From: Lasiosphaeria ovina
Taxonomy: Eukaryota; Ascomycota; Sordariomycetes; Sordariales; Lasiosphaeriaceae
Assembly (NCBI GenBank): GCA_033439765.1
Contig: JAULSN010000008.1
Coordinates: forward strand, 2,728,001-2,792,000
Direction: 5' to 3'
DNA length: 64,000 nucleotides
Both the position numbers and the translations under genes were made by a program. Shown in pieces: positions 18,980 through 64,000 of the stretch. Numbering within the stretch: position 1 is the stretch's first letter; each line of letters starts with the position of its first letter. The notes beneath the pieces are model-generated. The model did no database searches. It had not been told where the DNA came from and saw nothing but the letters and a program-made list of their open reading frames with translations.

Positions 18980-19333
18980 GGCAAGGAGTTGAATTGGAAG
19001 CAAAATTTGGTTCCTCTTTTTTGTTGAAATGAAAGAAAGTAAAATACCAGGCAATTTCTATTAACGTTATCTCTTATACGGAAATACGTGAAAGACGGGA
19101 ACACTAGTATTAATAAAGGAAAGTGTCTAAGTGCGGCAGCCAATCAGACGCGCTACTCGGCTTTTGGCGGGCTTTGTGCGCGTCAATTGGCCGCCGGGTT
19201 TTGAGACGACAGACTCCGAGAGGCAACGCTCACCTCACACGAAACGAAGCCGAAGAATTTCTCCACAAGTGCACCACAACACGCCCCCAGTTCCGTTTCC
19301 GGCTATTCTACTAGTACTTTTCGTCGGGTTTTG
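18980..19333. promoter_or_regulatory. Bidirectional promoter between monooxygenase and Zn2Cys6 factor
   Basis: 354 bp separate the two divergent start codons, so both promoters must lie here or overlap the genes. I see no clear TATA box; CGG-type half sites typical of Zn2Cys6 factors are not arranged as an obvious palindrome. Confidence 0.5.
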
Positions 19334-27177: not shown

Positions 27178-30100
27178 CTACCTTATAGGCTCAGCTAATC
27201 CAATCTGTCGTACGAATGCCTGGTGGAGAGAGTGGTTGAGAGCCTTAGTCAAACCGTCGGCCATCATGTCGGCCGATGGGGTATATTCTACCCTGATCTT
27301 CTGTTGACTGACTTCCTGACGTAACCAGTGGTTGTGGATATCCACATGCCGTAGCTTTGTTTGTAGTGTAGCTATCTCGGCCGTAACTAGCCGGATAGTC
27401 TGTTTATTGTCACACTGAATTCGAATGCGGTGATCGTCTAGCCGTACGGATAGGTCAGTCAGTAGTCGGCCTACAAAGAGGGCCTCTTTTGCTGCTTGCG
27501 ATAGAGCTAGGAGTTCGGCTTCCGTAGTTGAGGTTGTTACCGTATTCTGTTTACTGGCCCTCCAGCCGACTAGTCCACCAAATAGCTTTATGGCGTATGC
27601 TTGAGAGCTTTTTCGATCAAGACGGTTATCTGCAAAGGAAGCGTCACTGGCTACGATATAGTCGTCCTCACCCCCTAGTTGTAAGGCTAGGTTACGTGTA
27701 GTATATAGGTAGTGTAACACTTGATCAGCTGCCTTGTGGTGTTGTGGGCCAGGGTTGTGATTGAATCTGACTAGTCTTGATGTAGCGAAGGCGATGTCTG
27801 GCCTCGTAATTACGGCTACGTATAGGATCGATCCAGTCTTCTTTTGGTAGGCTGTTGTAGAGCTGGGCTCGGCGGTACTGTCGAAGGGGAGTAGTTCAAC
27901 TACAGCCATAGGGACCTTGGTCTTGGTTGTAGGTAGTTGGCTAGCCAACCTGGCGATCTTGTCGATATAAGCTGTTTGAGATAGCCAGATTAGACCCCTC
28001 TTCCGATTTCTTATGACTTCAATCCCCAGGAACCACTATAAGTCGGCTCCGCCTATAAGCTCGTATTTCTGTTGTAGCTGCCAGGCTAGTTGCTATGCCT
28101 TAATCGTATCTTCCTTTCGATAGCCAAAGACTATATCGTCGACGTAGAAGAAGATAAGGATCCCATCTTTGATTAGGATACAAGGTTCGTGTGGGACCGT
28201 CTGGAAGCCCAAGTCCAACAGGGTCCTCGTAAGCTCCTTTTGCCAGAGTAGTGGTGACTGCCGTAGACCGTATAATGCCTTTTTTAGTCTTAGGACCTTA
28301 CCCGGGTTCTTATAGCCGGGTGGCATCTGCATATAGACCGTGTCTTCCAAGTTGGCGTTGGCGAAGGCGTTAACTGCGTCGTACTGCTTGAGCTCTAGGT
28401 CAAATCTAGCCGCAATAGCCATTACTATACGGAAGGACCTAGCCGCTAGGGTAGCTGCATAGGTCTCTTGCTCTGTTGGCTTCTGTTGATCGCCCCTGAC
28501 GACTAGTCTAGCCTTGCACTTCTTGAAGGATCCGTCTTGGTTGACTTTGTAGGTATAGACCCACATACAATCGAGGACTTGTTGGCCCTGTTGCCGTGGA
28601 TCCTGCCGGTCGACCTCGATCCAGGACTGCATTGTATAGTGGCTGGCTAAGTGGTCTTCTTCAGCTTGTTGGAAGAGGGCCCCGAATGGATGGTCCTTAA
28701 GTTGGTGGTGCCACTTTGGTGGTGGTGGTAGGTCTTGACCGTATAGACTCTGTAGTCCATTTGGTCGTCGACTAAGCCGTTGGACCTCGGCCTTAGTCAG
28801 GGACTTAGTTCCAACTGGCTGGACTAGTCGGCCCGCTAGGAAGGCTGCCATCCACGGTTCAAAAGTAGATTGGCTAGTACTAGCTTGTTGAATAGGGATT
28901 GTGAGTAGTGCCGCTGCAGGAGAAAGAGAGGGTGTGGGATACGGTTCGAATTTTTCGGAGTCTTCCTCTTCGTCTTCCTGGCCCCTATCTTCCTGGTCCC
29001 CGTCTTCGTCGTCTTCGAAATCTAGGATCGGTTGGACGACTATTTCGTCTAGGATTGCTGGCTCGGGTACGTCTAGTTCGGCTAATTGGATATTGGTAAG
29101 GAGCTGGCTCAGTTCATCGAGTTGTATATATAGGCAGTCATCCTTCAATACTTGGAGGTCCCCGCTAAAGGTCTCTTTTTCATTAAAGACGACGTCTCTT
29201 GTGCTGATGACCTTATTAGTGAGTGGGTTCCAGATCCTATAGATATTTGAGGAGCTATAGCCGACTAAGTAGCCGACCCAGGCTCTTGGCTCCAGCTTTG
29301 GATTCTACTGAGTTAGGTGCCTTGGCCGTGGGTATACCCCTTTTTGGGCGTTGGGAGTCAGGGCGAACGCCTTACACCCGTAGGCTCGAAGATGGGTCTG
29401 GTCTGGCTTCCTATTTTCCGTAACTATGCCGTCCCGATGAGCTAGGTAGGTATAAAAACGGTCGTATGGTATAGCCCAGTTATAACCGTATTTGGGTGTT
29501 CGGCTATTTAGGTAGACTGCGGCTCTGGCGATCTCTGGCCATAGGGTAGCTGGAAGCCTGGCACCCGCTCTCATCGCTCTTACTTTGCTGGCTATTACAC
29601 CCCCTAAGCGTTCAGCTCCGCCGTTCTGAGCGGGTGTGTTAGGTGCCGATGGTTCAACCTTAATCGAGCGTTGGTTGAAGACGGCCCTGATAACTGGTCT
29701 ATTGAACTCGTTGTCGCATTCTACTACCCTCGGCCGTAGTTGGTATTGTTCTAGGATACCGAAGAGGTGTTGTAGTGCTTGGATAATCGAGTCTGCCTCT
29801 CTATTATAGAGGTAGTAGTCCCAGGCTAGGCCAGACCATCGGTCGGTAACTAGTAGCTGGTAGCGATAGTCGTTGTATCCTTTGTTGTAGTCGAAGAGGT
29901 CGATAGCTAGCCGTGACCCAGGTCCTTCGTTATGTTCCCTAGGTTGCCGGCGTACCTGGATTTTGGTCTTGGCTTTACCGCAGGCCTCATAGTCAACCGT
30001 AGTAGGTCCTTTGATCCGTACGCCTTGGGAGTACTGGACTAGATGCTCTAGTGCTTGTGGGCCTGGGTGACCGAGTCGAAGATGCCACAGGTCTGCGAGT

Positions 30101-33875: not shown

Positions 33876-34893
33876 AATTTTTGGATCCTTCAAATTGTTC
33901 TCGATGTCTGACTTCTGGCGCTGGGTAGCCACCCAGCCCCAGCCCGCTATGCATTTCTCTCCACTAGGCATTCGAGCAGCTGTTTTGACCCTATCGTAAG
34001 ATGGCTACCTGATATGCACCTCAATAACGGCCAAAGTAACCTGCCCACCTGACGGCATCAGCAGCCTGTAACAACACTTCCGGTCTGTCCCGTAGGCGTG
34101 GGCCATGATGCAGAGATTCTAAACTACCATGAGCTCATGGGTCTGACCTCCTGGGTCTCGAAAGGATGCACGTGGTGGCAGGGTGTGAGCAAACAGCCTC
34201 GGAAACCATGACCCGTTTCTCAAACATCTTTGCCCGAAACAGCATCACGGGGGACTGATACTCTAAAATTGGCTATTCGTGCTGGCTGACGGTAGTCGCC
34301 AGGCCAAGACCTGAAACAATGCAGGTAAGACAAAATTACAAATAAATCGAACTGAATCCAGCCAAATTTCATAGTAGCAAACGTTCTCATATGAAGCAAA
34401 ATAAGGATTCTAATTGACGCTGTGAATAAGTCTAGTCTATCCAATAAATGATCACCGTCTACTTAGGTACGTTCCGGCCTGGCCACGAAAGCGGGAAATG
34501 GTCCTGTGAGTCAGCTTTGACCACCAGAGTCCCGGGTCACCCACCACCGTCTCCCTCTGGAACGAATGCTAGTATTCCGGGCGCAGACAGGAAGAAGCCG
34601 CCAAATATCGACCAATCAGCCAATTGCTCAGTATGCAGCGATCACATGTCGCGTAATCTTGACCAAGAAACGGCGCCTAATTGGCCGGATGTCTTATCTA
34701 GTGTGGCACACCCTAGAGCAAGTCTGCCTACAGCCTCGCGAGCTGAATGCACAGTATAGTCTACACTAGGTTAGCGCCAGATACCACCAACGGCCGAGGA
34801 CCTCTTTAACTACAACGCTCGGGTCCCGCATTGCGTCAGAGACGACCATCCGCAACGGATCTCCATGCACTCCACGATGTGACGACAGAAGCA
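33876..34893. other. Divergent intergenic spacer
   Basis: Promoter space of the low-complexity gene (-) and the HET gene (+). The part from 34250 to 34450 is AT-rich. No gene is supported. Confidence 0.55.
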
Positions 34894-36636
34894 ATGGAAC
34901 AAGAAACCATGCCACAGAACCTCACCACGCACAAAGTTTTCCCCACCCCGAACAACGACACGTTTCTCGAGCACGGCGTGTACCAAAGCCTCGACCCAGC
35001 CCAGCAGGAGATCCGGCTGATCCGGCTCTACGTCGACGATGGCAACGACGATGGCACCCCCATCCGCTGCGACCTCCTCCCACCAGTGCCACTGGCGAGC
35101 GTGCGGGGGAAGTACACGGCCGTGTCGTACTGCGCGGGCGATCCGGGCACGACCGAGACGGTGCTGGTCAACGGGATACCGTTCGCCGTGTTTGCGAACC
35201 TGGCGCACGTGCTCGACGTGGCGCGCGACTTTTGGCGCAAGTCGTTTCCCCCGAATTCCGACGCCACGACAGAGAACGAGTGCATCCTCTGGGCGGACCA
35301 GATCAGCATCAACCAGTTCGACCTGGCGGAGCGGTCGCACCAGGTGGGCTTCATGCGCAGCATCTACGCGTCGGCGGCGCGCACGCTGATCTGCATCTCG
35401 ACGACGCGCGCCGTCGACACGCGCGGCGTCGAGTGGCTGGCCGCCCTGCACGCCAGTGTCGACCCGGACGGCGACTTTTATCACTACTACTATGCGCTGG
35501 AGTACCACCTGCGCACCAAGCTGGCTGCCGCTTCTGCTGCCGTGTTAAAATCCGACTCGGAATCCGACTCCGATGACGCCGAGGCGGCGGACGGCGGGAG
35601 CGGCGGCGGTGGGCGGTTCGCGGCCGACTGGCTGGCCTTGTACGACATCTTCACCAGCCCGTGGTGGACGCGCACGTGGGTGTACCAGGAGTTTATCTCG
35701 TCGGCGGAGGCGCACGTGCTGTACGGGGGCGCATCGATAGCGTGGCGGCACGTGGCCGAGGTGCTGCCGACGCTGCGCAAGTACAAGGTCGGCACACTCG
35801 GTTACCAGTACCGGTTCCCGGACGACGGGGGAGTGCGGGGCGGTGGACGTCGGCTGTCGGCGGCGCTGGACGCGCGCGGAGCGGAGCCCGAGGTGCGCGA
35901 GACGATGGCGGCCGTGGTAGACTTCTTCATCCGCAGCAAGCTGCGGTTTGACCGGGCGGGGCCGTACGAGCTGATGGACCTGCTGGCGCGGTCGCGGCAC
36001 CTGCGCAGCACCGACTGCCGTGACCGCGTTTATGCCTTCCTGGGCCTCGTGCGGTGCGACTACGGCATCGTGCCCGACTACTCGCCGAACAACACCATGG
36101 CATCGCTACTGGCCGACATGGCCAGCAAGATCGTCTGCCGCGACCAGCAGCTGGATATTCTGTCGTATGCGTGCGAGGCGCGCGGGCTGCTGTCCGGCCG
36201 CCTCCCGTCGTGGGCGCCGGACTGGACTTGCACCAGCTGCAGAGAGATTAGATCGCGGACGATAGAGGAGCAGACAGCGGGTGACGTACCAGCCATTTCC
36301 GTCACGAATTACGCCAGCGTCGGTGCTGGGGATGATAGTAGCAGTAGGCTGGCTCTACATGTTGAGGGTTACTACATCGGCGCTGTTCCTGACCAGTGGG
36401 ATCTCCGCGTTGTGTTCCATGATGTAGAGATTGTGAACGCGTGTGGTGGTAAGCTCCGGTCCGAAGGTGACGAGTTCTGGGCTCTGGTTGGCGCCCGTAA
36501 TCCGGTTGTGCTGCGCCGGTCCAGAGATGACGGGGCCTACCAAGTCATCGAGGAGGCCAGATTCAGTGGACTGACCAGTCTTGCCGGTGTGGCACGAAAA
36601 TATGGTCTCAGGAGTCAGACACTTGCCATTATTTGA
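34894..36636 (+). CDS. HET-domain (heterokaryon incompatibility) protein
   Basis: Intronless, 580 aa from the ATG at 34894 (the frame is open further upstream but without ATG). The HET domain occupies about residues 30-230: it starts IRLIRLYVDD, then YTAVSYCAGDPG (the TLSYxWG motif, here with CAGD instead of the usual CWGD), ILWADQISINQFDLAERSHQV (the WxDxxCINQ motif with Ser for Cys) and MRSIYASAARTLICI. An acidic Ser/Asp-rich insert (about 225-250) splits the domain from the C-terminal part, where CRDRVYAFLGLVRCDYGIVPDYS is the usual family continuation. HET proteins trigger cell death after fusion of incompatible hyphae, and some act in innate-type responses; the partner gene is unknown. 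Confidence 0.88.
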   Translation: MEQETMPQNLTTHKVFPTPNNDTFLEHGVYQSLDPAQQEIRLIRLYVDDGNDDGTPIRCDLLPPVPLASVRGKYTAVSYCAGDPGTTETVLVNGIPFAVFANLAHVLDVARDFWRKSFPPNSDATTENECILWADQISINQFDLAERSHQVGFMRSIYASAARTLICISTTRAVDTRGVEWLAALHASVDPDGDFYHYYYALEYHLRTKLAAASAAVLKSDSESDSDDAEAADGGSGGGGRFAADWLALYDIFTSPWWTRTWVYQEFISSAEAHVLYGGASIAWRHVAEVLPTLRKYKVGTLGYQYRFPDDGGVRGGGRRLSAALDARGAEPEVRETMAAVVDFFIRSKLRFDRAGPYELMDLLARSRHLRSTDCRDRVYAFLGLVRCDYGIVPDYSPNNTMASLLADMASKIVCRDQQLDILSYACEARGLLSGRLPSWAPDWTCTSCREIRSRTIEEQTAGDVPAISVTNYASVGAGDDSSSRLALHVEGYYIGAVPDQWDLRVVFHDVEIVNACGGKLRSEGDEFWALVGARNPVVLRRSRDDGAYQVIEEARFSGLTSLAGVARKYGLRSQTLAII

Positions 36637-43728: not shown

Positions 43729-44926
43729 GACTGTGTGTTTTTGGATGACGGGTCTCTCAGTGATAAAGGTCAGTAAGATACTAGCTCGCTCACAGCTTTT
43801 AATAACGAAAGTCGCAAGAGGTATTGCAAGCTGGCGAACGGACCGAGAGACTTCCAGTCAATTATATACACCTCTTCGGCGACTAGGAGCCAGGCGTCAA
43901 CATCATCATCCTGCACAACAATGTCATGGGTATAAAATGGGATAAATCCCACGAATGCGGACTGACTAACAGGGGCATTAGCTTTGCTAGGGCGAGCCCT
44001 GCGGCGGGTTATTGGCCGACTTGCGGCCGCTCCCAAACACGGCAATAACAACGAGCGTTATGTTTTGTGGCGTTGTTTGTCAGCCTTTTATAATATCTCC
44101 AAACTCCTTTCAGGGCCGACTGCAGTTGTGTGCGACCATGCCAAAAATGACCATTTTGCCTCTGGCGCAGTAGACCTTTTTCTCAAATCGGGTGTGTTTG
44201 GTTCATGATGAGCTAGATTGTGGGACATGAGATGTTTGGTCTTGACCCCAAACTGGGGCATCAATACGTGTGTGTCATGAATCATAATTTCATAGTGTTC
44301 TAGGAATTACTGTTACCCCTATTTCTATATTTACGCAGCTTGGGCAACAAAGGGGGCGATTGTTTACTTTGTTTGTTCCAAGTGGAGCCATTGGTGACAT
44401 CTGTGCCGCCCAGCGAGCTGCGACAATCGTGAACGCAGCCTGGATAACCCGTTCGCTTTCCTATTAAGCATTCGAGATTGAAGTCAATTAATTGACCTCA
44501 ATACCTTTTTTAAATTGGTATACTAGGACAATCGTGTCTCATAGCTTTCAATTTGTCTGAATTGTTAAAATCCCCAGATTCGAGATGACGTCATGCCGTG
44601 TTTTGTGTCAGCTTAGCTCATCTCAGTCGGATGGTCTGTGCAGGGCAAACGCACTGTGGCGGTGCGTACAAAGCCTCACCGCCAGCCACGCTGCAGCCTA
44701 GTTTTAGAGGGCCGCCCAGCCCCTCCATTTCCAACAGATACTGTCGTCGAGTCGTTGCGCCGTTTCAGACGCGCAGACCGCGATGGCGGCCTGCCGGTGC
44801 CAGTCACGCTGCGATGTCACAGGTTCGCCGTCTCATGTGAACCTGGACTCCAATTCTTTGTCTTTGCACTTTTTCTGTGCCATTTAGCGCACAACCCCGG
44901 CTCTTCGAGAGCGACTCGCCGTCGCC
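43729..44926. other. Divergent intergenic spacer
   Basis: Promoter of the hydrolase (-) and of the GIY-YIG-type gene (+). 44280-44560 is AT-rich. No gene is supported. Confidence 0.6.
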
Positions 44927-46291
44927 ATGCCCTTCTACGCCAACACTCCCGAGGCCTTGCTCGGCCGATCCGACTCCAAAAACCCCTCGACAACATGCAG
45001 AGGCATCACCGCAAGTGGCCGGCCTTGCAGGCGCCCGATTGCCGCCTCAGACTTGCCGCCCATCCCTGCCTCGCGCTCCAAATCATCGAAGCTGCGCGTT
45101 GACGACCCGAGAGACGAGAACCTGTATTGCTGGCAGCACAAGGAGCAGGCCAGTCTGTCGACAAGATCGAGCCCAGGCCCGAGGATGTCCAACACGCCCA
45201 TCTTGGAGGAGCGAACAAGCTTGGATACGCTGGCCGATCGCCTCGGCTTGATTACCCCGACGCAGACACAGTCGGAGAAACCGCCGAGACGCCAGAACGG
45301 CAGAGGATCGCAGCCCAGCGCAAGCGCCAGCGGGAAGCAACAGCAACGCCCGCCGAAGATGACTCGCCCAAAGCCCAAGAAGGAGGTTACCTTCTGCTTC
45401 TGCTTCCGCATCCCAATCGAAGAAGCCTCACCTCCGCCGCGCCCAAGACCACACCCCTTGCAAACTCCAGTGTCAACACCGCCCCGGGCGAGCTGGAACA
45501 GGCCCCCGAACCAATACCTTGCTCCGTCGCAGTCTCCATCGCGCCCCTGGCCGGCCTCGCCGGGCCAGTCACCCGGTGGGCGCCGCTCGCGCCGGTCCTC
45601 GACAGCCTCGCAAACCGCCGAATACATGTCGCTGATCCCCCAGAGCGCCTCGCCCCAGACGGCCTCGTTGCTGCTGGCCGAGCTCGCCAAGCCTGTCTCT
45701 CAACAGGACGACGCGGGGTACATCTACATCTTCTGGCTCACGCCCGAGACACAGCCTGCCACGCCTCCGGCCGAGGCAGCATCGTCTCTACTCGGGCCGA
45801 GCACCCCGACGCGCCCCGGCCGCGGCAACGCGCGGCGGCCCAGCGACGTGCTCCGCTCGTTTGCCGCGTCATCCGAGGACGACGACACCGAAGCCGGCGC
45901 GACCCGCGGCCCTGGCGACGCGGGCGCCGCACCGGGCGGCAAGAAGATCCTGCTCAAGATCGGCCGGGCCACCAACGTGCACCGCCGGCTCAACGAGTGG
46001 CAGCGCCAGTGCGGATACAATCTGTCCCTGATCCGGTACTACCCGTACGTCTCGTCCTCTAGCCCGGCCGCCGCCGCGGTGCCGCGCAAGATCCCCCACA
46101 GCCACAAGGTCGAGCGGCTCGTGCATCTCGAGCTCGCCGGCCGAGGCATGCGCGTCGCGGACCAAGACAAGTGCGCCACGTGCGGCAGGGAGCACCGCGA
46201 GTGGTTCGAGGTCGACGCTACCCGGCAGGGGGTTGCCGAAGTGGACGAGGTGGTGCGGAGGTGGTCCAACTGGGATGAGGCTCAGGGGTGA
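44927..46291 (+). CDS. GIY-YIG-superfamily (T5orf172/DUF1766, MUG113-like) protein
   Basis: Intronless, 454 aa. The C-terminal domain (about 265-445) fits the T5orf172/DUF1766 group of the GIY-YIG nuclease superfamily. GYIYIFWLT is the GIY-like strand, followed by a disordered insert and KIGRATNVHRRLNEW, the second conserved motif with its Arg. LVHLELAGRGMR and CATCGREHREWFEVD come later. The N-terminal ~260 residues carry an early Cys cluster (TTCRGITASGRPCRRP) also typical of fungal members, then Pro/Ser/Arg-rich disorder. Fission-yeast Mug113 is the best known relative; nuclease activity in fungi is not established. No targeting peptide is evident. Confidence 0.87.
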   Translation: MPFYANTPEALLGRSDSKNPSTTCRGITASGRPCRRPIAASDLPPIPASRSKSSKLRVDDPRDENLYCWQHKEQASLSTRSSPGPRMSNTPILEERTSLDTLADRLGLITPTQTQSEKPPRRQNGRGSQPSASASGKQQQRPPKMTRPKPKKEVTFCFCFRIPIEEASPPPRPRPHPLQTPVSTPPRASWNRPPNQYLAPSQSPSRPWPASPGQSPGGRRSRRSSTASQTAEYMSLIPQSASPQTASLLLAELAKPVSQQDDAGYIYIFWLTPETQPATPPAEAASSLLGPSTPTRPGRGNARRPSDVLRSFAASSEDDDTEAGATRGPGDAGAAPGGKKILLKIGRATNVHRRLNEWQRQCGYNLSLIRYYPYVSSSSPAAAAVPRKIPHSHKVERLVHLELAGRGMRVADQDKCATCGREHREWFEVDATRQGVAEVDEVVRRWSNWDEAQG

Positions 46292-52230: not shown

Positions 52231-53262
52231 TCACGCGTCACCGCCCGCGGCATTCTCCCTCCCTAAAATCTCAACGTCAACCACCGCCGTGCCAACAGCA
52301 AGCGTATCAGTCCTATAGACTAACAACCTAAACAAGCCCTTGCCGGTGCGGTGCGGGAGGACGCGGTACTCGCCGGGGACGGCTGCGGGGCCGCCGCGGG
52401 CGCGCAGCGACGGCGCGGGCGCCAAGATGACGTTGTTGCGGGCGCCAGCCTCGGTAGCAACAGGCGCGACGGAGCGGATGGCATTCAGCCCGGACGTGTC
52501 TGCTAGCTTGAACGCCAGCTCCTTCCCCTCGACGCCGCGGTAGGCTGTGGTCTGCATGGCCGTGTTCGCTGTGATGTGCTCGGCGGAGAGAACGGCGTGC
52601 GCGGCGAGGTGGCCGTCGAGGGCTTGCGCGAGCGGTAGTAGTAGCGTCTCGAGGATCCGCGTCGTCTGGAAGGCTAGGGGGTGGCGGTGGACGTCGGTTG
52701 TTGGGTTCGACGGCGGCGTTGGGGTCCTGGGCGGCGGTTGCGTGTCGGGGGGAGGGGGGACGGGGCCCTGACGTGCGGGCTGGGGATAGAAGGTCGGTCC
52801 GGCCTCGACCTCGACGTGGACGGCGTCGCGGACCCAGTCGACGGAGAGGCCGGTCTGCAGGGATGCCTGGCCCAGGGGGACGGCTGTTTTTGTGGTGACG
52901 ACGTCGACTTCGTGGGTGGACGTCTCCCACCGCATGCGCATGCTGTTCTGGGCGCCCAGCGGGGCGGTGTGGTGGGAGATGCTGATCTCGACGGGGCACA
53001 AGGCGGCGCCGGCGACTCTGTACTGCACGCGAAACCACTCGGGCGTAGCGCTGTCGGTGGTTTTAGTCACGACGGGATTCGAGGCGACGATGCCTGTTGC
53101 GAGGCGGGCGATGGTCTGGGGGTCCAGCGGGGCGTTGTTCCTGGTGGTGATGCTGTCGAGGTCGCCCGTCACGGCGGCGGCGAGGGCTCTCTCCACGTCC
53201 TGGCGCAACGATGCGAACGAGACGCGCATTGCGGATCTGCGCTCACTAATGTAATTACCCAT
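52231..53262 (-). CDS. Family B paralogue 1 (two-domain protein of unknown function)
   Basis: Intronless, 343 aa from the ATG at 53262 (or 332 aa from the ATG at 53229, after which alignment with relatives begins). Domain 1 (about 35-155) shows PLDPQTIARLATGIV, VEISISHHTAPLGAQ, PLGQASLQTG and VRDAVHVEVE. A Pro-rich linker spans 158-190. Domain 2 (about 195-343) has a helical start (ETLLLPLAQALDGHL) and a beta-rich end (GKGLFRLLVYRTDTLAVGTA). The same two-part plan, with matching residues, recurs in the minus-strand genes at 54.2, 58.0 and 60.8 kb. No signal peptide or membrane segment. I do not recognise the family; domain 1 and domain 2 both look like beta-sandwiches with short helices. Confidence 0.78.
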   Translation of the reverse strand: MGNYISERRSAMRVSFASLRQDVERALAAAVTGDLDSITTRNNAPLDPQTIARLATGIVASNPVVTKTTDSATPEWFRVQYRVAGAALCPVEISISHHTAPLGAQNSMRMRWETSTHEVDVVTTKTAVPLGQASLQTGLSVDWVRDAVHVEVEAGPTFYPQPARQGPVPPPPDTQPPPRTPTPPSNPTTDVHRHPLAFQTTRILETLLLPLAQALDGHLAAHAVLSAEHITANTAMQTTAYRGVEGKELAFKLADTSGLNAIRSVAPVATEAGARNNVILAPAPSLRARGGPAAVPGEYRVLPHRTGKGLFRLLVYRTDTLAVGTAVVDVEILGRENAAGGDA

Positions 53263-54230
53263 CCATTGACGCAAGGGTCGGGCGACAGGGCCAGGCAGCA
53301 GGGCACAGGGACAAGTAATTAGTAGCCTAAAATGAAATAAAGTAAAGAAAAATAGGAAATAGTCCCGTCTCGCATCAGCAGTTGACGACGTTAGTAAGTG
53401 GTTGCTAATTAATTGGCGACGGCGCGCAGCAAATCAGGTACTTGAAATTTGGCGTGGTGGCTGCACGAAATCGAAGACTTGGTATTCAGGGCGGAGGCGC
53501 GTGCGGCGGTGCGGATTCAAATCGACGTTGGTTGGTTCGTACTCATTCCTAGTTCCCACCGACCTTCACCTGGCAGCCTGGCCGCCGTCAGCTGAGAGAG
53601 CAGCCACAACTTGCATTTGGGTCAGCTGACGAGCTCGCTCGTCTTGCTTATTAAATACCCCGACTTCACCTCCGACTTGATTTTAATAATTTCCTGGAAC
53701 ATCTTTATCCCCCTTGACGTCACCGTCAACGATGATATCAACAGATCTCAACCAGCAATGTTAAAACCCGAGTGCCATGGAAGTAACGCACGTTCCTGTT
53801 GTTCTTTCTCTCAGTATCTTGCTGAGAGGTCTGTCATTTTTCTTTTTCCGTCATTTTTCTTTTTCTGTCATTTTTATTTATTCTTTTCACTTTGGCCTTC
53901 TTTATTATCGCCGTCCGTTTTTACCTGGTGAGGTGGGCGACGCAAAGGGTCTGTGAAAGGCGGCCACGCAATTTTCGTTGTTAAAGAGCAGGCACTCGCA
54001 TTCAATTGTTAGAAGGTAAGGTACCTAAGGTAAGCTGGGCAACCGCACTAGTCCATGGGTGGTTGAAACCATACCTAGCTAGTTCTAATTGCTTGTTGTT
54101 CCATTGGCCATTTCCAGCATGGCAATAATTAATTAGTCGACTCCCAGAGCCAGAAACACTTGCCAGCACACTACCGATCCCGCTTTTTGTCGCCGCCCAT
54201 CCATCACCGGCAGTTGCCCGATCCGGGCTC
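53263..54230. other. Spacer in the A/B gene array
   Basis: Promoter side of family B gene 1 and the 3' flank of B gene 2. A (TTTTTCTTTTTC)-type pyrimidine repeat lies near 53837-53890. No gene is supported. Confidence 0.55.
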
Positions 54231-55283
54231 TCAAGCCACGACATTATGAAATTCAACTATCATGGTCACGACGGCAAGCGTTTCCTTGTCTGCACCATAG
54301 ATCTTGATCTGCCCCTTTCCGGGATGCATGGGTTTTATAACAGCTCCCTCCACGTTCGCGAGTGCCCCTGACTGTCTCACTAACTCAAGGCCTTGTTCGC
54401 CTAGGCTGGGCACCATGGTCATGAGCTTGTGCAGCCTTGCGTTCGTCTTCACTTTGATAGTGGGAAACGGAGTTTTCTGAACCGTCCACTCGAAGCCACC
54501 TGCCGGCGGCGCTGCTTCGAGTTCTATCTTGGGCAGGCCAACGTAGGTGTCTTTCATACCCTGGTTGAGGAACTGGTCGATGGCGGCAGCGAGGTCAAGA
54601 ATGCCCTTGCTGGTTGCCCCCTGGCCACTGGACCCTGGAACTTGCTTGCTGGTGCCACTGCCACCACCGCTGGGGGCCGCCGCTGCCGCTGCCGCTCCCG
54701 TCTTGGACCCTGTCGGGGCTGTGTGCGGTGGAAAGTCAAACGTTAGCCAGAGTACTTAGTTGCTATCTATTTCAGTTGTAGGGTAACGGGGTAAAGATAG
54801 CTCACGCTGTGACGTCGCCGACTTTTTGGTCCACTCGTGGATTTTGACATGGACGTTGTTGTTGCACCACATGACGATCTGGCCGTCACGCTGCAGCATG
54901 CGGTAGCCGAGCTGGACATTGGGTGGCCGCACCCACGACGTCATGTCAACCGCGGACGTCTTCACAGTGTTGTCAAAGGCGTCCTTGGCACCGCCAGCGG
55001 TGGTGCTGTGGACGATGTCGACGGCGATGTCCCTGGCGGGTCCATCATGAATCAGATAGGAGACCGCCATGCTCGCGCCCTTCCCAGCTTGACGTTCGGG
55101 CTTGAGCATGGCATCGTCGTCTGATGGTGTTGCAATCGTAGTGTTCATCCCAAATGTCTCCTTTGCAAGACCGAGAATAGTGTTCTTGTCCAGAGTCGCG
55201 TTGCTCTTCTTCCCGTCAGGCGTTCTCCCGGTCTCGGCGCGTGCTAGTACCTCATTGAAGATGTCGTTGGTGGGGTGAGCCAT
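54231..55283 (-). CDS. Family B paralogue 2 (two-domain protein)
   Basis: Exon 1 is 55283..54806 and exon 2 is 54718..54231 (87-nt GTGAGC..ACAG intron, phase 1); 321 aa. Domain 1 carries LDKNTILGLAKETFG, IAVDIVHSTTAGGAKDAF, VQLGYRMLQRDG and NNNVHVKIHEW, aligned with the other three B proteins. The intron falls in the linker, which here is Ala/Gly/Ser-rich (seven Ala in a row). Domain 2 begins KGILDLAAAIDQFLNQG and ends GKGQIKIYGADKETLAVV, again matching. No signal peptide. The intron position and phase are shared with B3 and B4. A TATATATTAT stretch upstream (about 55384) may be its TATA box. Confidence 0.82.
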
Positions 55284-56039
55284 TGTGGGTTGTGGGTGGC
55301 GAATATTTTTAAGGGGGGCTCAGAATGTGAATGGCTGGTGAATGCTGCTGGAAAGACAGTAGAACTCAATCCGGCGCACCATAATATATACTCCAAGTCT
55401 CGAGAGATTTTGTAGTCGAGGCAAGCCACAAAGAGTAATACGAGTATCGAACTGATTCGCTGTCCCTGTCTTCCAAAGGTTACAATTAATTACCAATATT
55501 CTTGACGGTTGGTTGATCGAGGGGGTGAGCGGCCGAGTGAAACCAAAGCGGCGTGGTGGGATCGAGCAGTGCCCAGGAGCAATCTCACTAAGTCCAAGCC
55601 AGTCTCACTCCCAACGCCCAACTAGGTAACTTGACTCACTTTGACAATTAGCCGGATGCTATTTTGGGAATCCCTGCCAAGCCCGTTGGCCCCTGGAGTG
55701 TTGTTGGTGGCACATGAACGCCGAATATAGACACATGGGACTCTCATAAGCAAACCCATGCCGTCCGTCCACTCTGACCAACATTGCAGGAATAGCAATG
55801 CGAGTGTTTCAACATGCCGGGAATACCAGTGACATCTGATCCAACAGCCACTTTGTATGACGCACTTGACCTGCGTTTCACCCCCTGCCTGACGAGGACG
55901 AGAACATATAAGTTGGCCTCTCCTCAAGGTCGTTCTCGATTTCCTTTCTCAAGTCATTCGCCGGATCATCTGTTGATCTTTTCAACTTCACTCACCCAAT
56001 CTCGAACAGCCTATATTCTTTGTCCCCCATCCTGGAGCC
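55284..56039. promoter_or_regulatory. Divergent promoter region between B2 and A1
   Basis: 756 bp between the start codons of family B gene 2 (-) and family A gene 1 (+). CATATAAG at about 55905-55912 is a likely TATA element for A1, about 130 bp before its ATG, followed by a CT-rich leader. Confidence 0.5.
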
Positions 56040-57444
56040 ATGGCCAATCAGGCCCAGCCACTCACAATTAAATCCATCGAAAGGGTCAACGGCGTATATG
56101 ACTTGGATCTGAGGCCAGGCTACAGTCAATATGCATGGACGCTGACTCTCCCCCCGAGTGGAGTCATTTGGACGCACGAAACTGGGGGGCCAGTGATCAG
56201 CCGCCCGGCAATGTTCCTCTACCCTCAACTTACGTTGAAAGTCACCGGGACATACAACTTTGGGAGCACGGGACACCATTACCTGATGGGAACACAGGGG
56301 CGCTTCAACATCGTCAGTGGACCTCTTCTGGTGAACGGGCAACATTTCATAGCCGCCAACTTTCGTGATTCGGCAGCCAACCCCACCGAGTCTCCGTTCA
56401 AAGCCCATGGCGAATGGAAGTGGACCTTGTTGGACGCCCACCACAAACGCGTCACCGGGTCTGGAGATGCCAGTACCCATCTGGAGCTGTACTTTGCCCA
56501 CGGCAACGACGCAACCATGTTTGAAAATGGCTCGAACGGCGGTGTTTACTTCCTGGAGCTTGTCCGTCTTGCCTTCCCCGACCATGACTCTGTAGCCCAG
56601 ATGACGTGGGCCAACGCAGAGGAGATTGTGGTCCTCAAGATCGTCACATCGCTCTGGAAGCTGGGAGGCGAGGACTTGCACTACGACTCCCGATACCACG
56701 GCGGCGGCCGAGATTCTCACATGCAACACGGCACTCTCGACTTGCGCTCGATCCTCACAAAGACCACCAGCACGGCTAACTGCGTCGACATCAACGGCCT
56801 GACCATGGCAACGCTTCATTCCCTTGGAAGGAGAGCTCCCATCAGCAATACTGCGGTAAGTAATGCCCCCTACCCTCCCTCCGTCGACTCTTGCCTTGCA
56901 GGAGACCCGGTTCACTGACTCGAGATTGTGGAAGCGCGACAGCCCCCCATAGTGAAAGATTTGAGGCTGGCTGCCCAGTTCCCTTGGGGCTACATCACAA
57001 GGTGCTACCTGTTCGGATACGAGGGGAAACCTTGCAACAACGTTTACTGGATCGGCCGCTACGACGAGGTCGCGGGCCACGTGGGGAGCAAGGACGCCAA
57101 GCAGCTCGTCGACCAGCATGACCCCGACCGGACCATGTTCAAGTTTCACTGCATCGTGGGGTTCCGGTCGAGCCGCGACGACACGCTGCGCGCCGTCGAC
57201 GTGTGCCGCGCCGGCATCGCCGCCAATGGAGACCCCGTCATGTATGCCGGCCAGCTAACGGTGAGCAGCTACTTGGACTCGGCCGACGATGGGCCCGATG
57301 CTGCAAAGGTTCGCGCCATGAAAAAGCAGCATTACCGTATGTTTGGTTGCTCCATTTATTTATTTCCCCTTTAATATGACGCAAGCAGCTAATTAACTGA
57401 TTCTTCAAAATTGACCTATAGCCTTGCAATACTGGGCCGCCTAG
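56040..57444 (+). CDS. Family A paralogue 1 (transglutaminase/papain-fold-like)
   Basis: Exons 56040..56855, 56925..57336 and 57422..57444 (introns with GTAAGT and GTATGT donors) close to 416 aa. The N-terminal half is beta-rich, with LKVTGTYNFG, SPFKAHGEWKWTLLD and LELYFAHGNDATMF. The central part has FPDHDSVAQMTWANAEEIV, RYHGGGRDSHMQHGTLDLRS, then ANCVDINGLTMATLHSLG. That Cys-x-Asp..Leu..Leu-x-Ser-x-Gly context resembles the nucleophile helix of transglutaminase-like cysteine enzymes. After the first splice come WGYITRCYLFG, CNNVYWIGRYD, a His in DRTMFKFHCIVGF and an Asp in RAVDVCRAG, in the order Cys, His, Asp. Similar to A2 at 62.8 kb over the whole shared length. No signal peptide. The enzymatic role is inferred only from these motifs. 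Confidence 0.82.
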
Positions 57445-58042
57445 AGCTACCTGTCAGCCAATCATCACGCCTTCAATCATCTAAACCCGACGACACGCAG
57501 CCGGCCTAGTGTGGGTACAGCGGGGATGACTTCCAAGGCAAGAACAGGGAATACTTCTTTGAGCAACAGAGGGACTGCTGGTCAATTTCTTCGGTTTCGC
57601 AGTGAGCGTAACGGGTACCAGGGTGCTCTCTCTCTTGGTTTGACATTAAGAGGGATATTGTGTCAATAAACCTAGGTGGGCAAGGCTGGTAGCTGACTAC
57701 CTAGGCTGCGCGATGGGGGAGCTGTGCTCCAACACAACTACGGAACTTCAAAAGACGCAGGTAGTCATTTTCTAAATTAATATAAAAGCTCCTCCAACGC
57801 AATGCAAAGCTGCAGCAAGAAAAAAGAAAACATGGACGTATGTACCTAGATGACGTACTCGCAAAGACAATCCTAAAGCACGCAGTCGTCCAATGCCACC
57901 GTGCTTGCTTAAACTCTTCCAAGAATGGGCCGCTCGTCTCGCCATTCTAGGCTCTAGAAAACTCCACCCCGGCGGCTTGGGGGGGGGGGGCAAACGTGAT
58001 AGTTGGTGCCCTCTAGCGTATGTTATCCCTCAACTAGCACTT
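57445..58042. other. Spacer between cassette 1 and cassette 2
   Basis: 3' flanks of A1 (+) and B3 (-). A G run (12 or so, near 57979-57990) lies on the right. After the A1 stop the frame stays open for some distance with weak coding character, so A1 could be longer if its last intron is misjudged. Confidence 0.5.
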
Positions 58043-59127
58043 TTACTCTGTGACGTTGATTCCTAGCACGGTGGTGCGGCTGTAGAGACTCTGAGTATCA
58101 TAGACGATAAACTGAAACCAGCCGGTACCTATTTTCAGCGGCTCCAAAGAGAGCTGAAGGGTCTTCTTGGCTTCGTCGTAAGAGGAGGTTTTGACAGTCA
58201 CGAAATCAGTCGCGCTATCGACAAACTTGCCGTCGGGTCCGTAGCTGGTGCAAGGCAGGCAAAACCTTTTCCTCGTTTTATAATTATCTTCGGTTAGCAC
58301 CACAGCGGGATATTTAAGCATCTGTCCCGGCGCCAGTGGTTGTTTCTTGAACATAGACAGACTTATAGAAACTCGGTAACCCTTTTCCCGCATTATTGGG
58401 TTTATAAGCACGTGCGGGTTCTCATCTCTCTGAACATAGTACCACGTGAGGTACACATTGAACTTGGTGGCGAACTTAGAGATAACATCTTTCGACAGGG
58501 CCGAGTTAGCAAGAGAAGATTATATATAGTAATTAGTTTTGGTAAGAATCGTAGGGATATTCTCATGTAACGTGGGAGGAGAGGTTCCTTACCCCAACAG
58601 TCAGATAGTTTCCCCGAAACGGGCTCGATCTTGACAAAAATGGTATTGTTGTACCATATAAGGAGTTTTTCTTCCCTCATCTGGCCAGTGTTGCCTACTA
58701 TTTTCGGGTCTACTGGTTCCCAGTTTTCCTTGGTAGGAGAATATGTGTTATTGTAGAGTCTCTTGGCAAAATCAGTTGTCGAAGTGTGGTAGATTTGTAG
58801 GTAGAACGAAGTGGTGTTGAACCGAATATTCATCTTGATATGCATGCCGTGAACGAGACTATCGAGAGTTATTGGCTGTATATTGTCGCCTGATACGTCA
58901 AACGACTGGCTAAACCACCAAGTGAACTTGTCCTTCATGAATTGACGAATACCGCCGCTATTAATGAAGGCTGTGCTCGCCATTGGGATCGCTCCATCAA
59001 CCTTAGCCAGTTTGTTCTCCCATCCAGCGGCAGTAACCGGCTTGAATGAAACCTGATCTTTCGACGAGAGGAAAGCCAGTGTCTCCTGGGGCGGGGGCGG
59101 TATGGTGGCTGAACTGGGGACTGCCAT
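58043..59127 (-). CDS. Family B paralogue 3 (two-domain protein)
   Basis: Exon 1 is 59127..58593 and exon 2 is 58488..58043 (104-nt intron, donor GTAAGG, phase 1 as in B2); 326 aa. The start is MAVPSSATIPPPP. Domain 1 has FYLQIYHTSTTDFAKRLYNN and NNTIFVKIEPVSG at the places where B2 has IAVDIVHSTTAGGAKDAF and NNNVHVKI. The intron lies in the linker. Domain 2 starts DVISKFATKFNVYLTW and ends GTGWFQFIVYDTQSLYSRTTV, matching the GxGxFxxxVYxxxTL end of B1. The base composition is more AT-rich and the sequence more diverged than in the other B genes. No signal peptide or known domain. Confidence 0.8.
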
Positions 59128-60794
59128 GATGGGCAGTGTGTACGAAAAGGACAAGAATGATTGAAACCTCCTAAAAGACAATTATTTTACTACGTATCAC
59201 CGAGGAATTGATATCGATAACGTGGGTAGCCGTCTTACTGGCTTGAGAGCTCTTAGGAAAACGCAGGATTATTTAGTGAGTAAGTGGCCTGAGACTGATT
59301 TATAGGAAGGGTAAGGTCAATGCCTTACTCCATGTGGTAAATCCTAGGTAGGTACCTACCGTAGGTCCCTAATTAGCCCGGGACAATTGAGCAGCGCAAC
59401 AAACCGTGAAGGTAAAACGTGACATGATGCAAACTAAAACGGAACTCGGACTCTGGGACCTGATGGGGTCGGGCCAGGCCGAATTACAGTGCCGCACGGC
59501 GTATAGCTCGGAATATAACGGTGTGGCACTAGCCCTGAGCCACCCTCCTTTTGGCGGCCTTGTTCGATGCTGGGGGTGGTCTGCCCGCCGATCCCTGCAC
59601 TGCACACACACCCCCTTGACCTTGCACTCCGCTTCCTTCGACCGCCGCCAACGGTTTCGTGTGTCTGCGGCGGAGATTTTTGGCTCGGCCATCCCCGCAA
59701 CATGCCGTAGGATAATTACCGGCCACGTCGGCTGCTTTCGGCCGCAGACTTTGCGGAAACTCGCTTCAAAACTCAAACCGGCCTCGGCTGGTTGCCTGGT
59801 GGCTGGAACCCGTTGAGACCCGCTGGGACCCGCCGCCTGGTCTCGTTCTCGGACTAATTATCCGGGAGTGCGAGGAGGCCCCGGTTCGGACCAACCAGGG
59901 TCAGCAGCTTTAAGGTTACCAGCCGCACTCCCAGGAAAGGCCCTGCTCGCGCTTCTGCGCCCGTACCCAACAACGGAACTTTCCATGACCACCGTCAACG
60001 GTTCTGGTGTGCCTTTTTAGGGTTTATTTAGCGGGCCCGTTCGCTCCGGGGCCGCAGCCATTGCAGAAACTCGCTTAAGACTTTGGCCTGAGGTGGTCGT
60101 TGGTTGGATTCTCGAATGCGAGAAGGAGTCAACTCGTACCAAAACCCTCGCCCCCTGGACCCAGGCCATATTCCTCCCGCTTCCTACGCTAGTCGCCCCC
60201 CAGGCATAACGCCAAGGCCTATCCACTTTCCACGAGGGACTGCTGCAGTCAGATTTATCACAAAAGTGAAATGCCTTGTATCCACCACGCACACTAAAAG
60301 TGAACATAGGCATTTGCTGCGGTACAGCAAAAGTCAAACAATTGAACGGCACCGACAGAGTCATACCGACCGGCTCACGAACATTACCACCGCCATGCAA
60401 GATCAAAGTTTTCGCCCAGGGCACATTAAGCCGGCTTACTATGCTTTATTCCGTTTTAAATTTGCAACGCCCCGCGTTGCTTTCGGGTCCTGCATAGTCC
60501 TCTTGTGCGCTACTTAATCACCTACCTAATCTTCCATTCCCAGCATGGCAATAATATTTCAAGAATCCAGGAGGCAAAAGCCAGGGTACATGGGCCAGCG
60601 CGCGCACCAAAGCCTCCCCCCCCTAAACCATGGCAACAAGAAAAAAATGACCCCCCGTTTCTCTTTGTTGCAGCATCCCCTGTACGCAGCTTACGTGGTT
60701 GTTGCTGTTGTTTTTCTGTCTGTCTTTCAAAGAATTAAAGAACCGTCACTAGTTCCCGCGCGTCCCGACTTTTGCCCTATGCATGCGGCGGTGA
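59128..60794. other. Spacer inside cassette 2 with two diverged copies of a short repeat
   Basis: 1.7 kb without a supported gene. Two related stretches occur, CCGCAGACTTTGCGGAAACT near 59743 and CCGCAGCCATTGCAGAAACT near 60053, each followed by CGCTT; a small dispersed repeat or remnant is possible. Other frames show no coding character. Confidence 0.5.
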
Positions 60795-61954
60795 TCATTC
60801 GACAACTTTGAACGGGACGGAAATGTGGCTGACCACGAGAGTTGTGTTGTGACCCCCGTAAATCTCCAACGCTCCAGTGCCCGCCGTGAGCGGCTTGTAC
60901 AGCATGTGGCCGTCCTCCCATTTCCCCATAGGCCTTAGAATCCTGCCGTTGTCGACGTTCTTGAAGCCTTCCGTGATCGTGAGGCCGGCGAATGTGCTCA
61001 GCTTGATGCTGAACTTGCCCTTCTTTTGGGACCCCGGCGTTTCATTGTAGTCTTTGAGGCTGATCGACATTAGCTCAGGCGCGTTCGTCACATTCAGCTG
61101 GGCCGAAACGCTCTCAGTCGCCGACTCAGATGCCACAAAGTGTTGTTGGAGCTTGACGGCGAACTTGAGAATGTCTTTGTTTGGGGTGACACCATCGCGT
61201 TAGCGGGGTTTTCACGTCTAGGCAGGGTAATTAGGTAGTCATGATGTGACTGATCACGGCTACAATAATTAGTATTTAATTGGTTCTCTCACCTTTGATA
61301 GATGGCGCGTGTTCTAAAGTCGCAAATAAAACGGTTAGATATACTATAGAAACTGGCAATGGTAAGAAGGGAAAGGGGATCATTACGCTTGGTGTTATGG
61401 TCGGTAGGCTGGGTAGGGCTTGGCCTGGTGTGGAGGACGAAAAGGATGACGCCGTAACGCACCACTGCGGTTTCGGTTGTATGTAGCGCCTGGTGGCCAA
61501 GAACCTCGGTTTCTTCGGTCACGGCGACCCAGCGGCCCCGGTCAATCTGCGACTGACCAAAGAAATGGCTGAATGCCTTTTCGGCAGTCTCGGCCGTCTT
61601 GAAGTGCGAGATGTCGACATTGATCCCGGTAGGACCACCTTCCACAACGAAAGTGGCCGTCATGCTCGGATCCGGGGATTCGGTGGTGGGGAGATTGACG
61701 ACGAGCTTCGGATGCCCGACACGTGGGCTCGCTCCTCCAATCGTGTTGGTTGCAAGGCGGGAGATGTTGCTAGCATCCAACGGTGCGGTGATCTTTTTGT
61801 TAGTGGAGGGCTTCTTCGTCTTGGATAGTGTTATGACATCTGCCAACGACACCTCTTTCTTGACTGGCTCAGAGCTAGCTGGGGGGGGCGCGAGATTTGA
61901 CGTGGCCGGCTGCTGCTGCGGTACCGGATGAGAGTGGGGAGTGGAGTCTGCCAT
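60795..61954 (-). CDS. Family B paralogue 4 (two-domain protein)
   Basis: Exon 1 is 61954..61387 and exon 2 is 61174..60795; 315 aa if joined by the phase-1 intron that the B2 and B3 positions predict (donor GTAATG, acceptor AAAG, 212 nt). The donor is weaker than elsewhere, and an extra small exon is possible. A Pro-rich N-terminus leads into domain 1: LDASNISRLATNTIGG, INVDISHFKTAETAEKAF, VLGHQALHTTETAVVRYG. Domain 2 starts DILKFAVKLQQHF and ends GTGALEIYGGHNTTLVVSHI. These blocks align with B2 best. No signal peptide. Upstream, ATATATAATT (62101-62110 region) may provide a TATA box. Confidence 0.72.
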
Positions 61955-62848
61955 GGTGAACGATGTAAGGCAACAGCTAGTGCACAGGAAGAATCACCCA
62001 CGATACTTTAGCTTTTGGTGATGAAAAGAAAGGTAATGTTGTGTGGGGGATGTGATGTGGTGTTGAGGGTGAATGCACCCAGCACGGCGGAGAGTGTGCA
62101 ATATATAATTGATCATCAATGGGCGCAGACAGAGAACATTGATGATCAAGCTGATAACGTCGACTTTGCTTCATGGCTGAGTTGAACGGCGTCTCATTCT
62201 GCTTACAGGAACCCAAAGTTTCAGTGTCCAATCACTGTGGAGGCACAGATTGCGCCGATTCGATTTTTTTCAGGCTGTTGGGTCAGATTTGAGTAACGCA
62301 TCTGAGTCTGACATGTTTTCGATGCCGCTGTCACTACTCAATGCGACGACCACTGCCAGTCAGATGCTGACCACATCGGCGTAGACCATTATTTCCGGCG
62401 ACACATCCACGTAAGATATCAAACTCAGAGTGGCAAATCTCATCCGCAAAGTAAGATAGGGGCTGTCTTACTCACGCACATGAGACATTCTTGCATGCGT
62501 TGTGCCTCTTGAAAACGAGGCACCGGCCCAGGCCATGGCATCTCCGTATGACCAACGAGAAAATCTATTTTTGGGTTCAGAGAAGACAATGGGAGTTACT
62601 TGAGAGGGTGACATTTACATCGACAGCTAAGTAGGTACTTGGAATAACACCTAGATAATTATATATATGTGGGTGCCCAACTCTTCGATCCAACCGGTGC
62701 ATCTCCAAGACCATCGTTAGTTCCATTTATCCCCCAACATCACCAGCAAGCAAGCCCCGCTGTTCCATCTGCGTGTGCCATTCTACACTCGTTCCTAGCT
62801 GGTCATCCCCCCTCCTCACCTGCTAGCGCCTGTTTCCTGTTTCAAAAC
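61955..62848. promoter_or_regulatory. Divergent promoter region between B4 and A2
   Basis: 894 bp between the divergent start codons, the same arrangement as between B2 and A1. TATATATAT at about 62661-62669 lies about 185 bp before the A2 ATG. A CT/CA-rich leader follows. Confidence 0.5.
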
Positions 62849-64000
62849 ATGCAATTCCCGACCATTACTCGCATTCAGCGAATTAGCAGTAGTAATGATT
62901 TCGAAGTGAGAAAAGGCTTCGGTGATCACATGCAGTTCACTCTCAGAGTGGAGGACGATGATACCATTTTCCGCGTCACTCCGGCCCTGAACAACCCGGC
63001 AATCTTTCTATACGACGCCCAGGATGTTCCGCTCAAAGTCAGTGGCACCTTCAATTTCCCTGCGGGCAAATCCAGCTATCGTCTCGTGGGCAACTGCGCC
63101 ACGTTCCAAATAACCAGCAAGCCGTTCGAGATAACTGGAACCGGAGCCGCACACGCCTTTACAGCTATGCACTTTTCAGACGCAGGCCCTACTCCTCACT
63201 CGCCTTTCAAGGTTGAGGGTGACTGGCACTGGACTGTTATGAAAGATGGTATCCCAGGTACCGCCGCGAGTGCCATCTCCAGCCCGGCCACGACCACACT
63301 CGAGCTCTACTTCTCGCTTGGCGACGACGGCACGCCATTCGGGATTTTCGGCCAATTCTTCTACGAGCTTATCAGCATTTCCTTTCCCGACTACCACACC
63401 GTGGCTGGCCAGACGTGGGCGGCCGTGGAGGGTGGCATTATCGCCAGGATAGTGAGTACGCTATGGACACGCAGACTCTATGATCTTCATAATACCATGA
63501 TATACGACTGCCGGTTCCATGGCGGGGGCATGGCCATGCACCTTCACAACGCTACCCTCAATTTGGCTGGCATATTTTCACCCGGACATCTGACTGTCAA
63601 CTGTTTCGATCTTGCCGCCCTGACCTTGGTAACGCTTCAGTCCCTTGGCAAGAGGCCTGGTACCACTCCAGGCTTTCAGGTGAGACATGAATTCCCGCGG
63701 ACCGTAATGTGCACACATATAGAGGAAGATAGCAATACACTGACTATTAATAACTACTTAGGTTCCAATGATCCAAGGCCTCAAGCTAGTCTGCGACGAG
63801 AACTGGGGCTATATTCCCGCTGGCCCCTTATTTGGGTGGGACCACTTTGGAGCCCCCGCACGTCATTGCAACAACCCTTTCTGGATTGGCCGCTTTATAT
63901 CACCCACGGGAGACCTGGTGGATGCTCCGCCCAATGTGGACAGAAATGACGAGCACCGGACCTATTTTCAACGGCACTGCTACTGCGTCTTCAAGCCTGC
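62849..64000 (+). CDS. Family A paralogue 2 (transglutaminase/papain-fold-like), cut by the window edge
   Basis: Exon 1 is 62849..63679 and exon 2 starts 63762 (82-nt GTGAGA..TTAG intron, phase 0, matching the first intron of A1) and runs off the window. The start MQFPTITRIQRIS aligns with the A1 N-terminus. Shared blocks: LKVSGTFNFPAG, SPFKVEGDWHWTVMKD, TLELYFSLGDDGTPF, FPDYHTVAGQTWAAVEGGII, CRFHGGGMAMHLHNATLNLAG and VNCFDLAALTLVTLQSLG. In exon 2 come NWGYIPAGPLFG, HCNNPFWIGRF and EHRTYFQRHC. The proposed nucleophile is the Cys of VNCFD and the base the His of FQRHC; the Asp lies beyond the window. An in-frame upstream ORF start at 62669 is not needed. Confidence 0.82.

Follow-up and report, generated by a model that had tools for sequence, protein, structure and literature searches.

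Animal transglutaminases combine a four-domain layout with a Cys-His-Asp residue order, and single-chain proteins similar to the homologues F and G described below occur in other organisms, although no search performed here returned them. Bacterial toxin-immunity loci with arrays of orphan immunity genes represent a second class of enzyme-partner systems. Fungal killer drivers such as wtf (PMC5478263) offer a third point of comparison. Here we analysed a 64,000-nucleotide stretch of the genome of Lasiosphaeria ovina, a member of the Sordariales (the window; contig JAULSN010000008.1, positions 2,728,001 to 2,792,000, or C31:2728001-2792000), in which six genes of two families, A and B, form a row. 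C1, C3, C4, C12, C23, C27, C29 and C31 denote contigs of the 51.7-Mb genome, A1, A2 and B1-B9 the genes of the C31 row, and L009 and L010 the C31 stretches past the window end. What recurs in the two families is the head-to-head B<->A pair and not a set of three genes, and the A and B products very probably function together as one unit, of a kind for which we found no description. It is moderately probable that they constitute the two halves of one four-part protein, with A as the enzyme and B as a regulatory or specificity subunit.

Like animal transglutaminases (TG2, TG3 and factor XIII), the A/B system shows the Cys-His-Asp order, a beta-rich N-terminal domain before the core and two further domains after it, located here in B or, in the single-chain homologue G, in cis. 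Unlike them, it encodes the C-terminal half on a second gene, A and B lack a significant sequence match to any Pfam family or PDB chain, and the first domain of B appears mixed alpha/beta rather than a beta-barrel in a low-confidence model. The system resembles bacterial toxin-immunity loci and wtf in that enzyme and partner lie side by side, divergence is rapid and some partner copies are unpaired; it differs from them in that the A and B genes are divergent rather than co-directional, a fused form exists, and neither product has a known secretion signal or toxicity.

A search of the whole genome with A1 identified 13 A loci on seven contigs. At 12 of them a B gene lies directly upstream on the opposite strand. 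Both B domains were recognised at eight (the two pairs of the window, C3:403k, C29:3254k, C23:145k, C27:1144k, C29:2537k and C23:906k, the last with E 8e-19 for domain 1 and 1e-8 for domain 2). The evidence is thinner at the remaining four: domain 1 only at C1:8793k (E 2e-12), domain 1 at E 0.0017 and domain 2 at E 0.024 at C23:4476k, domain 2 only in the stretch read at C1:1225k (E 9e-6), and fragments of both A and B at C4:111k. In the reverse direction, four B queries recovered nine B loci on contigs other than C31 (E <= 1). An A gene stands head-to-head with eight of these, one of which is the query's own locus. A-like pieces at C27:2989k and at a second place on C4, both obtained with the A protein P0007 as query, are not counted among the 13. 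Of 12 A-bearing places, taking the C31 pair as one, six are no more than ~410 kb away from the end of their contig: C31, C23:145k, C4:111k, C3:403k, C29:3254k and C1:8793k.

A1 and A2 are paralogues (35% identity across 401 columns, E 5e-69) that have both introns in common, in phase 0 and phase 1. Their N-terminal beta-rich domain is followed by a core with Cys, His and Asp in the order of transglutaminases and papain, and all three residues are kept, in order, at 10 of the 12 A loci outside C4; Asn replaces Asp at C23:4064k, and the frame is broken near the His at C1:1225k. In the low-confidence AlphaFold2 (AF2) model of an A protein (P0003), the Cys is placed at a helix start and the His and Asp on later strands. 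The first Foldseek rows for A were a plexin and then transglutaminase 3, both at E 0.04, and transglutaminases occupied the leading rows of the VIA-align comparison (25 of 28 rows). From these residues we infer catalysis: A is a probable cysteine enzyme with a transglutaminase/papain-like core. We liken it to transglutaminases in its way of working and do not place it in their families, since it lacks a Pfam or NCBIfam profile match. In P0007, the A protein of C1:8793k, a repetitive TEVKGT-type insertion of ~100 residues interrupts the N-terminal domain, with one repeat fewer in the annotated protein than in the DNA reading.

B1-B4 belong, as divergent paralogues, to a single family with two domains. 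They are related beyond chance by blastp (B2-B4, E 2e-6; B1-B2, 2e-4; B2-B3, 7e-4; database size set to 1000 for all comparisons among A and B proteins), with weaker matches for B1-B3 (E 0.002) and B1-B4 (E 0.012), and iterated profiles of domain 1 and of domain 2 unite all four. A preliminary description of the window, made from its letters, had proposed such a family and profile searches as its check. It had also suggested comparing all six proteins with one another; this recovered the B-B and A1-A2 relationships, with B3-B4 reduced to a 12-residue match (E 3), and detected no similarity between A and B by blastp (best E 0.18 over 15 residues). The aligned B motifs listed there proved looser than stated: the C-terminal G-[KT]-G ... 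[TS]-L motif is present in all four proteins, whereas B3 lacks the LG..LQ block. The remaining architectural claims were borne out, including the order and strands of the six genes, B1(-) B2(-) A1(+) B3(-) B4(-) A2(+), the alignment of A1 with A2 throughout and their common first-intron phase, the divergence of the second B gene and the A gene in both sets, and the phase-1 linker intron common to B2, B3 and B4. B4 additionally contains a 21-nt exon and hence two phase-1 introns, as confirmed by the annotated protein P0008. Several B proteins have proline- and alanine-rich linkers, and the low-confidence B model comprises a mixed alpha/beta domain, a linker and an Ig-like-looking domain; its matches to antibodies were dismissed owing to the low model confidence. 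Elsewhere, L063 (C27:1307342-1308274) is a B gene akin to the B1 subfamily; the genome searches gave no A match in its neighbourhood.

Single-chain homologues were reached from P0007 through F (L067, C12:1398k) to G, both single-gene proteins on C12. With the A profile, F reached 51.9 bits and G 24.2 bits, against 8.0 for the best of 5000 shuffles. Behind the A-like half of G, the B profile scored 22.1 bits and matched domain 1 ahead of domain 2, as in B, where 3000 shuffles reached at most 6.2; for this test, two small exons after the long frame of G were joined by eye. In the damaged copy H the enzyme half is apparently disrupted and the B-like half better kept (13.0 bits with the B profile). 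Like the A/B pair, these proteins present an A-like half followed, in G and H, by a B-like half in the same order; unlike it, they occupy one gene rather than two, and the similarity is remote. The tail of F can be aligned with that of G (26% identity overall), but its C-terminal half was unmatched by B profiles, so F was rejected as a fusion with a B-like tail, and evidence for a fused form comes from G, supported by H. Statistically, then, G does connect A and B with the single-chain proteins, but the link is a remote one. A further G-like fragment lies at C6:74339-74621 (E 2e-15).

Phylogenetic analysis of the two families was based on 15 A sequences (12 loci and three L. miniovina proteins; the C4 fragments were left out) and 17 B sequences (leaving out B9 and the C1:1225k partner, which comprise domain 2 only, the C4 fragments, F, G and H). 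Tree distances of A and B correlate across 10 of the 12 pairs (Mantel test, r 0.69, p 0.0003), with a median B/A distance ratio of 1.6 (range 0.6-2.5, 45 comparisons). The group C23:145k / C27 / C29:2537k was recovered in both trees, and in the B tree B1 falls inside it, joining the partners at C23:144k, C27:1143k and C29:2536k (support 95/97). B3, B5, B6 and B7 form one row-specific clade (97/98), indicating that local duplication occurs. Several branches of the B tree are long, and 7 of its 14 inner branches are open; the joining of B4 with B8 carries a long-branch flag.

This topology rules out the duplicated three-gene B-B-A cassette that the preliminary description had read in the window. 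B1 and B3 belong to different subfamilies, and their sisterhood was rejected (log-likelihood 81 lower; approximately unbiased test, p-AU 2e-56). A1 and A2 are not sisters in the A tree, and placing A2 in one clade with A1 and the L. miniovina relative of A1 was only marginally rejected (p-AU 0.046); B2 with B4 was not rejected (p-AU 0.18). The row itself comprises two A genes and no fewer than nine B genes within ~30 kb. We propose that, around the two pairs of the window, B genes without an A (B1, B3 and B5-B9) multiplied.

The pairing at 12 of 13 A loci, the co-varying distances and a single-chain A-like/B-like protein in the same genome together argue that A and B work together, as had been suggested from the window alone. 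In the two-halves reading, A would be the catalytic subunit, contributing the N-terminal beta-rich domain and the transglutaminase/papain-like core, and B, corresponding to the C-terminal half of G, would bind A and thereby complete the enzyme, direct it or hold it in check; both the contact and its positive or negative sign are suppositions of this model. The divergent promoter, if shared, would keep A and B in step or in proportion, and the B<->A pair would be the unit copied round the genome. Either splitting of a single-chain gene or joining of two genes may have come first.

Several observations weigh against this reading. The AF2 models are poor, with a mean predicted local distance difference test score (pLDDT) of 51 and a predicted template-modelling score (pTM) of 0.52 for A (P0003), and 48 and 0.31 for B; Foldseek returned nothing for either model at E <= 0.001; and all VIA Z values are below 8, possibly reflecting just a common arrangement. 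At the A locus C23:4064k, the ~3.5 kb read upstream contain no B but a serine hydroxymethyltransferase-like gene (named from reading its sequence), and 7 of the 9 B genes of the C31 row are without an A. The uncounted A-like piece on C27 lies at C27:2989243-2989581 (E 3e-5, query P0007). G has Ser where the catalytic Cys is expected, and is perhaps a non-catalytic scaffold copy; F keeps the Cys. A G+H profile lifted only 2 of 15 B proteins (C29:2537k and C27) above the best of 3000 shuffles, and a G+H+F profile 3 of 15, adding C23:145k (8.6 versus 8.4), with B1-B4 never included; the failure of B profiles on the F tail points the same way. Aligning the C-terminal half of F/G with B by hhalign gave a probability of 11%, in an alignment colinear over most of both that scored 28.2 versus 16.0 in 100 column shuffles. 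The score for domain 1 only (18.8; next shuffle 17.5) was not used as evidence; one of its column-shuffle controls (seed 63) scored 130 over 5 aligned columns and was treated as a numerical artefact.

Alternatively, A could be an enzyme that does harm by modifying or cutting proteins, with B as its cognate inhibitor; the extra B genes would then be orphan antidotes kept against A variants of other strains, either in allorecognition or as a selfish driver. We regard this as unlikely, although several observations favour it: head-to-head adjacency is kept at 12 of 13 A loci despite rapid divergence, B genes are more numerous than A genes and form a row of copies lacking an A, and the median B/A distance ratio exceeds one. 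A crude hydropathy scan of A1, A2 and B1-B4 found no hydrophobic signal or membrane segment, so that A and B would meet in the cytosol, and the top PDB sequence match of the B profile is a cystatin, a cysteine-protease inhibitor, at a non-significant E of 0.27. A homologue with A-like and B-like halves in a single chain is more readily explained if B is a subunit than if it is an antidote that can be separated, and at C23:4064k no B was found in the stretch read beside the A gene. The excess of A-less B genes would suit an antidote or recognition role. A more far-reaching version is rather improbable in our view: a single-chain transglutaminase-like protein would have been split into lineage-specific, genome-wide two-gene toxin-antidote or self-recognition units, its C-terminal domains becoming separately evolving, array-amplified antidotes or recognition subunits.

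The transglutaminase-like residue order of A and the proline- and alanine-rich linkers of several B proteins, which could be cut or modified, would also suit an enzyme and a co-regulated substrate or structural protein that A crosslinks or trims with no common complex. The resemblance of B to the C-terminal half of single-chain G instead suggests a domain of the same machine, making a substrate role quite improbable. A chance cluster or plain tandem duplication with no functional linkage, for which the B3, B5, B6 and B7 clade might speak, is scarcely credible, contradicted as it is by divergent B genes at A loci on seven contigs, by eight of nine B loci outside C31 standing beside an A, and by co-varying distances.

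With A and B taken as two halves of one protein, two uncharacterised fungal families gain a testable joint identity, and divergent, co-varying pairs alongside a fused homologue in the same genome provide a rare natural experiment in the conversion of one protein into two genes, or of two into one. Should A prove active, it would represent a fungal cysteine enzyme not recognised before, under the control of a separate subunit, and the row of unpaired B genes would point to conflict or recognition.

Consistent with the preliminary description, no fungal system of this composition emerged from the families, PDB sequences and literature covered, the last through titles and abstract openings, where no such A/B genes or system were described. 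All proteins recovered by word-limited protein-database searches with A came from L. ovina or L. miniovina, including the unnamed P0004 (A2), and a word-limited search with B returned two L. ovina proteins. Pfam and NCBIfam gave only weak, unrelated matches (CCDC24, ACSF4 propeller and TetR_C_20; Tir and 4HPPD), which were taken as chance, as were two PHROGs of unknown function (E 0.02 and 0.09) and three PDB sequence matches (E 0.27-1); PDB sequence searches yielded no significant relative. PADLOC defence profiles matched none of six proteins compared (E up to 0.1). Searches for prokaryotic, viral and plasmid relatives gave none: tblastn with F and with G had no result on plasmids, and pattern scans, an insensitive method, produced 9 stretches with the A-family alignment and 48 with the G+F alignment in genome contigs, and 14 with a further alignment and 22 with the G+F alignment in viral contigs, none of which was confirmed.

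The six A and B genes of the window are real. They were rebuilt with introns (Table 1): spliced B4, including its smallest exon, equals annotated B0T24DRAFT_723835 (P0008) letter for letter, and the A1 model is identical to B0T24DRAFT_723834 (P0001, 353 amino acids) over the length of P0001, from the annotated start onward. A2 extends past the window end, its last ~63 codons being read in L009, and its model matches P0004. B-domain profiles applied to L009 and L010 revealed that the B row runs on beyond the window on the same strand; no further A was found there.

Table 1. Genes and intergenic regions of the C31 row, in window numbering (continued past 64,000 for B5-B9), and the single-chain homologues G and H.
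Feature	Position	Strand	Description
B1	52231..53229	-	332 amino acids, intronless; without its own A here
B2	54231..55283	-	321 amino acids; exons 55283-54806, 54718-54231; phase-1 linker intron; head-to-head partner of A1
B2/A1 intergenic region	55284..56039		756 bp, start codon to start codon; putative shared (bidirectional) promoter
A1	56040..57444	+	410 amino acids; exons 56040-56855, 56943-57336, 57422-57444; introns phase 0 and 1
B3	58043..59127	-	326 amino acids; exons 59127-58593, 58488-58043; phase-1 intron; without its own A
B4	60795..61954	-	322 amino acids; exons 61954-61387, 61313-61293 (21 nt), 61174-60795; head-to-head partner of A2
B4/A2 intergenic region	61955..62848		894 bp, start codon to start codon; putative shared promoter
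A2	62849..64000 within window	+	420 amino acids; exons 62849-63679, 63762-64164, 64230-about 64258
B5	about 66.0-64.7 kb	same as other B	annotated B0T24DRAFT_638356 (P0009)
Further B gene of the row	about 69.75-68.4 kb	same	B-domain profiles
Further B gene of the row	about 77.6-76.2 kb	same	B-domain profiles
Further B gene of the row	about 79.75-78.55 kb	same	B-domain profiles
B9, last B of the row	about 81.9-81.4 kb	same	domain 2 only, at end of stretch read
G (L069)	C12:1568252-1569898		A-like half then B-like half in one chain
H (L070)	C23:3020001-3022200		damaged copy, 61-73% like G by piece

Other genes of the window include an open reading frame (ORF) with a heterokaryon incompatibility (HET) domain at 34810-36633 (+) (PF06985, E 1e-19), ~16 kb from the B/A row, and a T5orf172/MUG113 domain protein at 44888-46288 (+). 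At 28096-29304 (-), a retroviral-type SH3 domain accompanies part of a reverse transcriptase (PF07727, RVT_2). At 18017-21598, a flavin adenine dinucleotide (FAD)-binding ORF (-) adjoins a fungal transcription factor ORF (+), possibly forming a small metabolic cluster.

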